Origin: a virus
IMG/VR virus record: IMGVR_UViG_3300005613_000254
Coordinates: 1-32,578 of that record
Strand: one strand, 5' to 3'
DNA length: 32,578 bases
Shown: in pieces, positions 5,168 to 14,764 of the stretch
Layout: the number at the start of each line of letters is the position of its first letter
Position numbering within the stretch: position 1 is the stretch's first letter
Translations under genes and position numbers: made by a program
Notes under the pieces: model-generated
Database searches by the model: none
Told to the model about the DNA's origin: nothing
What the model saw: only the letters and a program-made list of their open reading frames with translations

Positions 5168-5695
5168 TTACACGTTCATTTGATTAATCTTTGGGAATGA
5201 ATCGGCGTTACCTGCGACCCAGGTAGTATAGGTTGCAATGTTATCATCGAGCCATTCCCAAAGATCGTCAATCATGTCGACCATCTTATTATATGCCTGA
5301 ACCATCTTCGATAAATTGCTGGCTGCTTCTGCATTCTCAAATTTCGCTTTAGCCTCACCACTGAACATTGTCACAGACTGATTGTTCCGCATGTAATGAT
5401 AGTAAACATAGTTAGCGGAAGGTGAAATATAAAGCGTATAAGAATCATCACCGATTGTTTGTGTTTCGGTTGTATAGATTTGATCATAAAGGTCAGTCCA
5501 TTTTGATTCTTCGGCTTCAACTCCGGCAACAAACTCATCATAAAAATCATCACCCAGCAAACGCTTCAAAAATTCTTTTTCATACTTCAAAATGAAGTTC
5601 ATCAGATTTGTGAAGTTTGCAACTTCGGGATTAGTGGTACCTGTGATGTTCGGAATCTCAAGCTCGCCAACAAAATATGATGATGTCAGATACAT
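5168..5695 (-). CDS. Head-tail connector-like protein (DUF6712-like), 175 aa
   Basis: A 175-aa helical protein starting MYLTSSYFVGEL. It has the segment KYEKEFLKRLLGDDFYDEF (residues 38-56), then a central aromatic helix with YVYYHYMRN. This arrangement (early helix with LLG..xY..F, then an aromatic Y-rich helix) is what I remember of DUF6712 and related adaptor proteins in Bacteroidota phages, which occupy the slot of the HK97 gp6-type connector after the capsid gene. It precedes the tail terminator candidate by one base and follows a 73-aa gene by 3 nt. Assignment is by pattern memory and synteny. Confidence 0.55.
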   Translation of the reverse strand: MYLTSSYFVGELEIPNITGTTNPEVANFTNLMNFILKYEKEFLKRLLGDDFYDEFVAGVEAEESKWTDLYDQIYTTETQTIGDDSYTLYISPSANYVYYHYMRNNQSVTMFSGEAKAKFENAEAASNLSKMVQAYNKMVDMIDDLWEWLDDNIATYTTWVAGNADSFPKINQMNV

Positions 5696-10079: not shown

Positions 10080-11237
10080 TTAAGTTCTAAATTCGCTCAT
10101 CACGGCATATCTTGTCGCATCCAAAAAGTGATCATGATCCTTGACCGGTTCTTCTAATCGGATGCCGTTTATTTCTCTCCATTTGTAATTCTCAAGTTCC
10201 TTTCGTAGATCGGGATCATGAACAAAATGTAGTTTAAAACTGTTAACAAGTCCGATACCATAGGTGATTGAGCCGGGAAATTTCTTTACCGCAAGCGCCT
10301 TCAATCCCATTCGCCGGAGGTCTGCAATCATACCAGGATCGGCGGAATCACACCATATATGACCATCACCAATACTGAGGCGCATAGGCTCATATAATTC
10401 CTTAGCATTTGGTGTTGGCAAATAATACATGCATTGCACGTATAAGTTGTTACCATTCCTGCCAACTTTTGATATAGCAGTCGGTGCAGTTGATCCAAAA
10501 TCACATCCAAATGCAATTTGTTCAATATCTTTAGGAAATTCATCAATCCAGGTATATGAATTATATACAAGACCTTGCGGAGATGCACGAAGTCCAAGAC
10601 CATAGACCTTCCACATGTAATCGTCAGCCGTCCCGGCTTCTATGTTTTCAGGAGTAGGTTTGTATGATAAAATTTTTCGTTTTTCCCAGATAGATACTTT
10701 CGGATTGTCAAGTATAGTTGAATGACAAAATGATACATCTGGCCTTTTAGCAAGATCAAAAACCCAGTGATCTGATACTTTAGGATTGAAATCTCCCCAC
10801 CAAAACCGCCTGCATCTCATTTCAAGCTGATCAAATATGGGATGTTTAATATCAAGCATTTCGTTGATCCAGAAAAAATCACATCCCGCCCCGTGAAACT
10901 TAGACGGCTGGTCAGCACCGATGAAGTATATTTTATTGCCAAATATCTCGAATTGAGGAATATCCTTCACGGTTGCCATTGGTGATTCAATTCCATGCAT
11001 CGGCATTCGGACATTGAAATCATTATATAAAGTTGTTTTGAAACTATTGTAGGTTTCTTTGATCAAATAAATAACCAGATTATGAACACCCGGAACGGTG
11101 CATAAAGCTATAACGAAATCAATAGATGAAAATGTCTTACCTGATCTCGACGCTCCCTCAAGAATTGCTCCCCTTTGCTTCTGCTTCAGGGTATTCATCA
11201 AGTGTAGGAGATTCTTGTTGTATTGCGGATGTGACAT
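10080..11237 (-). CDS. terL: Large terminase subunit (TerL), 385 aa
   Basis: The DNA-packaging motor, with ATPase and nuclease domains. ATPase: Walker A GASRSGKT at residues 28-35, Walker B with catalytic Glu in FFWINE (121-126), and a coupling motif GDFNP (148-152). Nuclease (RNase H fold): acidic residues in GCDFGST (Asp246), WCDSADPGM (Asp297, Asp300) and the C-terminal DHDHFLDATRY (Asp369, Asp373). Its 385 aa is at the short end, as usual for PBSX-like terminases. The chosen ATG at 11235-11237 overlaps the TerS gene by 80 nt; a later ATG at codon 14 would still keep Walker A. It ends before a 239-bp gap with repeats. Confidence 0.95.
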   Translation of the reverse strand: MSHPQYNKNLLHLMNTLKQKQRGAILEGASRSGKTFSSIDFVIALCTVPGVHNLVIYLIKETYNSFKTTLYNDFNVRMPMHGIESPMATVKDIPQFEIFGNKIYFIGADQPSKFHGAGCDFFWINEMLDIKHPIFDQLEMRCRRFWWGDFNPKVSDHWVFDLAKRPDVSFCHSTILDNPKVSIWEKRKILSYKPTPENIEAGTADDYMWKVYGLGLRASPQGLVYNSYTWIDEFPKDIEQIAFGCDFGSTAPTAISKVGRNGNNLYVQCMYYLPTPNAKELYEPMRLSIGDGHIWCDSADPGMIADLRRMGLKALAVKKFPGSITYGIGLVNSFKLHFVHDPDLRKELENYKWREINGIRLEEPVKDHDHFLDATRYAVMSEFRT

Positions 11238-12446: not shown

Positions 12447-12467
12447 AAAAACGGGCGGTAACACCGC
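12447..12467 (-). terminator. Weak terminator-like hairpin after the methyltransferase cassette
   Basis: On the minus strand GCGGT-GTT-ACCGC (12467-12455) forms a 5-bp GC stem followed by CCGTTTTT. It overlaps the right edge of the inverted-repeat element, so it could belong to that element instead. The rest of the gap 12351-12591 is taken up by the leader ORF and the element. Confidence 0.35.
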
Positions 12468-12580
12468 ATAAAACCAATAAAGGTTTCAGTGGGTAATTTC
12501 GGCATCGTAGCCCGTTCAAAGTTCGTTGTATCTTGATAGTTCATCGCTCGCATTCCTTTACTGGTCTTATGCAAACCGTT
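12460..12580 (-). repeat. attC-like inverted-repeat element B, downstream of the methyltransferase (121 bp)
   Basis: Plus strand: an AAC box (12460-12462), arm GCATAAAACCAATAAAGG (12466-12483), a 71-nt interior, arm CCTTTACTGGTCTTATGC (12555-12572) and a GTT box (12578-12580). The arms pair over 18 bp. The two mismatches are A/C on the plus strand and G.T on the minus strand, so only the minus strand (or the mRNA) folds into an uninterrupted stem. Element A at 13275-13396 has the same layout and an equal interior length, and shares interior words such as GA(A/T)AGTT(T/C)ATCG. The outer boxes do not fit the canonical integron consensus (RYYYAAC/GTTRRRY). Confidence 0.8.
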
Positions 12581-12591
12581 GTGTGCAAGTG

Positions 12592-13344
12592 CTACCATAG
12601 TGCTATTTGACGAGTTTCTTCTTCAAACCGTTTGCAAGCCTTTTGGTAATACTCATCATCAATCTCGTAAGCCATGAGCCTTCGTTTCATATCGTGGCAG
12701 GCTATGGCGATACTTCCACTTCCTAAATGAGTATCAAGTATTAAATCGCCCTCGCTCGTATATTTTTTTAGTAAGTGCTTATACAAATGCACAGGCTTTT
12801 GGGTTGGGTGTATCCTAATCTCTTTATCTTTCATATTATGCTGTAACATACCGTGCCAAGTTACTTTTATGTAATCCACCCCAACGCCTGTGCTTCGGTA
12901 TGCTATCTCACCTTTGCTTTTAGTATAATCTTCAGGAACTTCTTTATCCCAAAAAATACGCCCACCGCACAATCTCGGATCTGCAAAGTAGTTCACCCCC
13001 CAAACAATTTGATTTTTACTAACCCTAAAAAGCTCGTCCCAAAATTCAGTAGTTGGCACACCTAAATCCCAATCCTTTTTGGTGTAGTCTTTTGTTTTAG
13101 TTGCAGCCTTTGATGAGCTTTTTTTACCAAATCTACTATCATTAGCAACATCAATCCCATAAGGTGGGTCAATAATAGCCCAATCAAATTGTTTGTCGCC
13201 ATAGCTTCGTAAGGCTTGCAAACTATCTCCGTGTATCAATTCAATTCCATTCTTTGAAACCGCACCAGACACACAACACGTGCTATAAGCAATAGCGGGG
13301 TTAGTGCTATCCGAAAGTTTCTGCTGTTTATTATCGTTTGTCAT
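12592..13344 (-). CDS. DNA (adenine/cytosine-N4) methyltransferase, 250 aa
   Basis: An amino-methyltransferase acting on DNA. Catalytic motif IV is DPPYG (residues 59-63). HPTQKP (179-184) precedes the SAM-binding motif I DTHLGSGSIAIA (204-215), giving the beta-class circular order of N6-adenine/N4-cytosine enzymes. A target-recognition stretch lies between. There is no restriction enzyme beside it, so an orphan methylase protecting phage DNA is likely. The frame is open upstream to a TTG at 13404 and an ATG at 13383; I take the ATG at 13344. Even this start lies inside element A, so residues about 12-26 (TNPAIAYSTCCV) are encoded by the element arm; the ancestral start may be later. The gene forms a unit with the flanking elements, in wide gaps unlike the rest of the genome, which points to a mobile cassette. 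Confidence 0.9.
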   Translation of the reverse strand: MTNDNKQQKLSDSTNPAIAYSTCCVSGAVSKNGIELIHGDSLQALRSYGDKQFDWAIIDPPYGIDVANDSRFGKKSSSKAATKTKDYTKKDWDLGVPTTEFWDELFRVSKNQIVWGVNYFADPRLCGGRIFWDKEVPEDYTKSKGEIAYRSTGVGVDYIKVTWHGMLQHNMKDKEIRIHPTQKPVHLYKHLLKKYTSEGDLILDTHLGSGSIAIACHDMKRRLMAYEIDDEYYQKACKRFEEETRQIALW

Positions 13345-13396
13345 AATCTGAAAGTTTATCGTTTTTAATCCGCTACTGCTCATAGCACCATACGTT
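13275..13396 (-). repeat. attC-like inverted-repeat element A, upstream of the methyltransferase (122 bp)
   Basis: Plus strand: an AAC box (13275-13277), arm GTGCTATAAGCAATAGCGG (13280-13298), a 71-nt interior (13299-13369), arm CCGCTACTGCTCATAGCAC (13370-13388) and a GTT box (13394-13396). The arms match at 17 of 19; both mismatches become G.T wobbles on the minus strand, at the same positions as in element B. It lies in the same orientation as B, 815 bp away. The start of the methyltransferase frame lies within the interior. I have the impression that the CCGCTATTGCTTATA word recurs in Bacteroidota chromosomes, which I cannot verify here. Confidence 0.8.
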
Positions 13397-14392: not shown

Positions 14393-14764
14393 TTAACGGG
14401 ATACGTGCTTAATTTTTTCTTGTTTTTCTTGCATTGGTCTGTTATCGTCCCTTATTATTTTCTGAATAATACTATTAGCAAAGTCAGCCATTAAATCAGC
14501 AAGCTCATAACTCTCTTTGTTGGTCCTATCCGTAATTATTGGATGATTCCATATATCTTTATTATCACCAAGCCAGTCCTCCGCATCAAATCTTTCGATA
14601 GGCAACGAAACGCCAACAGCAGCTATATTTAATGCTTGCCGAATGGCCTTAATTGAACAATCGTAGTAATCAGAAAATCCATGTTCAAAATCCCGAAGCT
14701 TATTTTCCCAATCATCCCCAAATTCATCCTTAAATACTTTTTCAATAATTTTGTGTGGTTTCAT
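14393..14764 (-). CDS. Hypothetical protein, 123 aa
   Basis: A 123-aa acidic, helical protein with Trp-containing turns (DWENKLRDFEHGFSDYY, DAEDWLGDNKDIW). No catalytic motif, metal site or membrane segment is visible. ATG start; its stop lies 3 nt before the 44-aa gene. Function unknown; the position in a run of accessory genes suggests a host-takeover or anti-defence type role at most, which is speculation. Confidence 0.5.
   Translation of the reverse strand: MKPHKIIEKVFKDEFGDDWENKLRDFEHGFSDYYDCSIKAIRQALNIAAVGVSLPIERFDAEDWLGDNKDIWNHPIITDRTNKESYELADLMADFANSIIQKIIRDDNRPMQEKQEKIKHVSR

Follow-up and report, generated by a model that had tools for sequence, protein, structure and literature searches.

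A DNA methyltransferase gene in the phage genome studied here is very probably carried on a cassette belonging to an integron-like system, one found widely in Bacteroidota and borrowed by their phages. The genome is represented by a stretch of 32,578 nucleotides from virus record IMGVR_UViG_3300005613_000254 (the whole of which is referred to below as the window), in which terminase, portal, capsid and RecT genes identify a phage. Genome comparisons show a family of sites to which those of the window belong, their organisation in arrays, cassette ends that are complementary to one another, gain and loss of whole cassettes and, in near-identical lytic phages, one relocation at the predicted junctions.

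Folding sites in the phage window

Two elements, E1 and E2, lie at either end of the methyltransferase gene (Table 1). Read on the minus strand, both consist of AACG, a short spacer, a 19/20-nt arm, a 71-nt interior, the opposite arm, 1-2 nt and GTT. Pairing on this strand is uninterrupted and includes G.T wobbles at two stem positions, identical in the two elements, whereas the plus strand carries A.C mismatches at those positions. In a stem search the minus strand scored 18 for each element, and none of 60 dinucleotide-preserving shuffles of the whole window gave a stem scoring even 16. Single-strand folding energies for E2 and E1, respectively, gave z-scores of -2.1 and -0.8 as DNA and of -4.7 and -2.5 as RNA; as these are only modestly unusual, the main evidence is the recurrence of the elements rather than their energy.

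Table 1. Features of the methyltransferase cassette and its surroundings, with window coordinates
Feature	Position	Strand	Basis
Phage terminase large subunit	10080..11237	(-)	PF04466
E1, attC-like folding site 3' of the methyltransferase; site to which the cassette would have been joined	12460..12580	(-)	98 bits, 2.6e-19
GTTGTGTG, one cassette end, complementary to the other end	12578..12585	(+)	Sequence reading; rule tested separately
Mobile cassette, 816 bp (inferred)	12579..13394	(.)	G^TT of E1 to G^TT of E2 (plus strand); inferred from cassette-end rule and crossovers in homologous phage arrays
DNA methyltransferase (N6_N4_Mtase) gene	12592..13344	(-)	PF01555, 8.7e-19
CACACAAC, other cassette end, R''-like box beside E2	13270..13277	(+)	Sequence reading; rule tested separately
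E2, attC-like folding site at the 5' end of the methyltransferase cassette	13275..13396	(-)	AACG..GTGTT on minus strand; 111 bits, 3.6e-22
E3, probable third site with a longer loop	14615..14811	(-)	27.5 bits, 2.9e-4

Neither an Rfam search of the window nor BLASTN with E2 against phage and plasmid collections gave a match, the latter because these sites diverge too fast, such that a structure model is needed. The covariance model described below recovers both elements with high scores (Table 1), although E1 and E2 are themselves among the sequences from which it was built, and it also located E3, within which the start of an open reading frame (14393-14764) falls. The unit from E3 to E2 lacks complementary ends and its status is uncertain.

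The conserved ATG of the methyltransferase sits within E2 (protein start MTNDNKQQ...), and when the protein was used as a query two phage contigs matched its first 43 residues only, i.e. the part encoded by E2, at 86-87%. Copies resembling E2 precede other genes in five further loci (L010, L014, L015, L016 and L034). That in L010, 122 bp long, is followed by a different methyltransferase gene, which likewise has its start codon within the element; here and in L016, the frame of a methyltransferase other than that of the window begins at the same ATG. The element therefore travels with unrelated genes. The interior of E1 resembles the chromosomal form of the element; E1 and several chromosomal interiors have words in common (e.g. 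CTATC / CTGTC, AAAGTTGA, GCGGGCTAC) that are missing from the phage elements bearing start codons, and the loop may have a conserved role of its own.

An element family and a rule for cassette ends

Pattern scans (39 viral and 49 genome stretches) identified arrays of up to five elements with differing genes between them, and an alignment of 49 elements was used to build the covariance model. Within this alignment 94% of stem cells are paired, and 255 cells are changed on both sides of the stem as compared with 65 in shuffles, a count that is partly circular in that the elements had been selected by their stem. At one stem pair, however, G.T is present in 47 of the 49 elements and T.G never; this is not circular, because a Watson-Crick pair would have scored higher in the selection. 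The R-box consensus RYYYAAC / GTTRRRY is met on each side in just 4/49 elements, only AAC..GTTR being kept. TJE1 was intended as a canonical attC control, but its array was not located within the 8 kb examined.

The model matches 86 of 148 sampled Bacteroidota genomes and 3 of 99 from a control phylum, one of these three having been picked beforehand. Among relatives of a Lutibacter genome elements occur in 43/60, with numbers per genome reaching 52 or more (the count was limited at 52); array size ranges from 4-13 elements in phages to 52 or more in a Lutibacter genome. That the elements are chance inverted repeats, a possibility for which the modest DNA folding z-scores might be cited, is virtually ruled out by the many copies and their strong specificity for one phylum, and by the failure of all 60 shuffles to reach the observed stem score. 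One phage element (L042:565-690, minus strand) holds in its loop a tRNA-Ser (cga) called by ARAGORN at 580-674, i.e. a tRNA-like gene within an attC-like site.

The two ends of an integron cassette are known to be mutually complementary (the attC core and inverse core sites). We compared the 8 nt after the GTT of one element with the 8 nt before the AAC of the next, counting as paired those with at least 6 pairing positions. By this measure 39/48 chromosomal units and 29/37 phage units have ends that pair with each other across the gene, as against 3-4% of random pairs, and the same test found no such pairing between the two flanks of a single element. Applied to the window, the rule therefore delimits a cassette made up of the methyltransferase and its 5' element (Table 1), and this unit is inferred to be the mobile one, both from the rule and from crossovers in homologous arrays.

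A sequence-only reading of the window had described E1 and E2, with their coordinates, anatomy, non-canonical outer boxes and strand asymmetry of wobbles against mismatches, and all of this held; E3 had not been noticed. It had proposed a covariance-model search of Bacteroidota genomes and phages, which found many further copies and arrays with different genes between the elements. The possibility it had raised as fatal, that the element is tied to this methyltransferase only, is not borne out, as unrelated genes follow it. Its picture of a gene held between two equal elements is corrected here: the unit is the methyltransferase plus E2, with E1 as the joining site.

Cassette movement in Flavobacterium phages

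No clean comparison yielding an empty site was available for the window phage, and none is shown among its nearest relatives, because these share at most 54% of the terminase; Flavobacterium phages were used instead. Each of the Baltic Sea isolates, a group described as virulent (PMC7077304), has about 10-13 elements within the 7 kb that was examined. Two of them, lillamy9-2 and lillamy9-3, show no difference over the 8500 bp compared other than the location of one 439-bp cassette, found at 5636 in one phage but at the array head, at 2036, in the other; the crossover falls inside a shared GTTAT. This relocation is a single event, observed in two database genomes. In a wider comparison of nine phage pairs, 40/46 boundaries of identical sequence blocks lie no more than 20 bp from a predicted crossover, a distance met by 7.8% of random positions. 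Furthermore, ten phages share one identical unstructured sequence before the head G^TT, followed by seven different first cassettes. A head site with exchangeable first cassettes and clean junctions are the marks of site-specific excision and insertion at an attI-like site; this is inferred from comparison of phage genomes, as is the position of the crossover at G^TT, which rests on junctions and not on a recombination assay.

Gene orientation

Arrays are tandem, with differing genes in one orientation, and this orientation differs between chromosomes and phages. Of 53 genes in chromosomal arrays, 50 have the canonical orientation, in which the site follows at the 3' end of the gene, and no gene begins within a site. 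All 40 genes in phage arrays, by contrast, are inverted and have the site at their 5' end, 16/40 having their start within the folding site; the methyltransferase gene of the window is likewise inverted relative to a standard integron cassette.

The phage arrangement invites the alternative that the elements are mRNA leader structures, which would regulate methyltransferase translation and be carried along when the gene is transferred by homologous recombination. In its favour are the frequency with which the phage start codon lies inside the element and an E2 RNA hairpin more stable than its shuffles. Against it, chromosomal genes almost always run the opposite way and never start in the element, cassette ends pair across the gene, and the relocation of a cassette involved no more than a few bases shared at its junction. 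We consider this explanation most improbable, although a leader role in phages may exist in addition to the role as cassette sites that we favour.

A candidate recombinase

No tyrosine recombinase (PF00589) was found in the window, nor in 12/14 other array-bearing phage records, but in two phage records a gene for such an enzyme lies 1-1.3 kb away from the array (a phage copy is at L180 2060-2887), and in strain CP2B the array starts about 355 bp from a recombinase gene, which occupies L122 6086-7264. Recombinases nearest to arrays score below the cut-off for integron integrases (TIGR02249); the top-scoring family for them is NF040815 (XerA-like, named site-specific tyrosine recombinase/integron integrase), against which they score 193-244 bits, 4/8 exceeding the curated cut-off of 220 bits. 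Many differ from that family in having an extra N-terminal region of about 90-100 aa. The insertion specific to IntI, present in the IntI of L130, is missing from all ten aligned array-linked recombinases, and the spacing from box I to HxLR is 86-96 in these proteins, 133 in IntI and 98 in Xer. In a tree they group apart from both IntI and Xer, although long branches and the absence of an outgroup mean that the sister group of IntI is not resolved.

Elements occur in 47/49 genomes with an XerA-like recombinase and in 37/97 without one (p=1.3e-12; this test on 148 Bacteroidota genomes omits two that had been chosen for their elements), and the XerA-like gene lies within 15 kb of elements in 24 of the 34 genomes where both positions were listed. 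Chromosomal arrays are thus associated with an XerA-like recombinase lacking the IntI insertion. The 37 genomes with elements but without this recombinase include some drafts or possible remnants. Two layouts were seen: in G008:C27, G003:C2 and G068:C1 the recombinase has a long form, of about 390 aa, and is transcribed towards the array, whereas in G054:C33, G062:C44 and G070:C4 it has a short form, of about 280 aa, and points away from the array, which is the arrangement of classical integrons.

IntI (TIGR02249) was considered as the partner enzyme, being plausible from weak matches, and was ruled out by the missing insertion, by co-occurrence and by distance. A related proposal would be that the elements are nothing more than attC sites of classical integrons, on which a host integrase of IntI type acts, and that classical integrons of Bacteroidota are simply under-recorded. 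True IntI is indeed present in 46/148 Bacteroidota genomes, the cassette-end rule is identical to that of integrons, and P12002L_attC2, from a Polaribacter phage, recombines with IntI1 in E. coli (PMC9892861). However, elements occur in 23/46 genomes with IntI and in 61/100 without (p=0.28, i.e. no association), and true IntI lies within 15 kb of elements in just 1/14 genomes. Four IntI loci scanned with the covariance model gave no match, though these loci may be empty platforms; the R-box consensus is rarely met, and the stem has wobbles in place of bulged bases. This proposal is accordingly judged unlikely. It remains possible that IntI also acts on some sites, given that our model detects the P12002L array and that one P12002L attC was used by class 1 IntI1, but whether the assayed site is one of the modelled elements is unverified. 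Many Bacteroidota have true IntI without these elements nearby.

Alternatively, the housekeeping recombinases XerC/XerD might move the elements, the array-linked recombinase being coincidental. This would account for the phages without a recombinase, since all hosts would have Xer, and for the genomes that have elements but no XerA-like gene. The array-linked recombinases, however, are separate from the Xer group on the tree and adjoin arrays far more often than expected by chance, and we regard a role for XerC/XerD as improbable. The reading we prefer is that the XerA-like recombinase is the acting enzyme and folded single-stranded DNA its substrate, which is inferred in the absence of a recombination assay; phages without the gene would use the copy of their host or of a co-infecting phage, on the assumption that the enzyme acts in trans.

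The sequence-only reading had suggested a cassette moved by a folded-strand mechanism. Arrays, complementary ends and the moved cassette support this, recombination itself being inferred without an assay. Its statement that no integron integrase is present, and that a different and undescribed recombination system may be at work, also held, in that the recombinase beside chromosomal arrays is not IntI; proximity to a tyrosine recombinase, which it had put forward as a check, was found for chromosomal arrays. The clean cassette boundaries it had sought in related phages were found in Flavobacterium phages, where one cassette has relocated, and are not shown for the window phage.

Proposed mechanism and relation to known systems

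In the mechanism we propose, one strand of the attC-like site would fold into a long hairpin, marked off from the other strand by its G.T wobbles, and a tyrosine recombinase would cut at G^TT (on the plus strand in the window). The cassette would leave as a circle, its two complementary ends completing a site, and would re-enter either at a further element or at a head site that is unstructured and attI-like. In phage cassettes the gene is inverted, its 5'-end site often supplying the start codon, and a methyltransferase swapped in by this route would probably protect the DNA of the phage against restriction by its host.

Integrons have been described chiefly from Proteobacteria, and folded-strand recombination is regarded as requiring the IntI-specific domain. 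The present system resembles IntI integrons in its tandem cassettes, each with a folding site, in G^TT crossover, complementary ends, one marked strand and insertion at an unfolded head site, and in the canonical gene orientation of its chromosomal arrays. It differs in its recombinase, which is without the IntI-specific insertion and does not group with IntI, in R boxes that mostly misfit GTTRRRY, in marking the strand by conserved G.T wobbles within a continuous stem, and in phage cassettes that are inverted and often start within the site. A long imperfect hairpin with strand asymmetry (by G.T wobbles, not bulged bases), complementary cassette ends, tandem arrays of one orientation and, in ten phages, a head site that receives new cassettes are all met. 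The system works like an integron, yet two defining features of IntI integrons, the IntI domain (stated as such in PMC9668308) and the R-box consensus, are not met, and it is therefore better described as a variant of the integron than as a member. A bolder reading, which we think likely, is that Bacteroidota have their own integron lineage, in which an XerA-like recombinase acts on folded attC-like sites without the domain taken to define integron integrases, and that their phages maintain a separate pool of cassettes, inverted and rich in methyltransferases, which they exchange during lytic growth.

A gene cassette carried by a phage, as put forward in the sequence-only reading, has a precedent: clusters of attC sites without an integrase (phage CALINs; Qi et al. 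2023, PMC9892861) have been published from lytic phages, including Polaribacter phage P12002L with methyltransferases. Both studies describe lytic-phage attC clusters with DNA methyltransferase cassettes. That work, however, used standard attC models and assayed two P12002L sites, whereas the present model finds 8; its main text does not mention Flavobacterium, and its relevant passages do not cover inverted orientation, a Bacteroidota recombinase or cassette movement in phages. IntegronFinder 2.0 (PMC9024848) reported that Bacteroidetes had earlier shown only In0, and then one complete integron, in Salinibacter. Here too integrase genes occur in the phylum without attC detected by standard models, but that survey sought IntI and the present arrays go with a different recombinase. 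No published link between XerA-like NF040815 recombinases and cassette arrays was found in the literature searched. Likewise, Bacteroidota-wide arrays, a non-IntI recombinase, inverted phage cassettes and their movement were not found in the open-access literature searched; subscription papers and preprints were outside its scope, and an earlier description is not excluded.

If the reading is correct, a phylum-wide cassette system without the IntI domain would change the count of integron-bearing bacteria, provide a second recombinase with which to study single-strand choice, and be a source of cassettes missed by standard attC models.

Cassette contents

DNA-modification enzymes account for 18/46 phage cassette genes (13 N6/N4 methyltransferases, 4 C5 methyltransferases and 1 Mom), a share biased upwards in that some of the phages had been found via methyltransferases. 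Being rich in such genes, phage cassettes probably help against host defences. Lytic phages appear to swap them, and the system would give phages a means of exchanging anti-restriction genes rapidly. Enzyme activities are inferred here.

Reduced plating of Baltic Flavobacterium phages on a second host, LMO6, was linked by the authors to the missing of a specific methyltransferase (PMC7077304), and the methyltransferases of these phages lie in cassettes of the kind described here. The sibling phages snusmum6-1 and snusmum9-1 (L145 and L146), which come from different isolation hosts, are distinguished near the array head, at about 2040-2900, where snusmum6-1 has one methyltransferase cassette more. 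Beside the methyltransferase cassette of the window lies a gene for a TET-associated glycosyltransferase (PF20691; 15259-16122, minus strand), which suggests hypermodified bases in the DNA of this phage.
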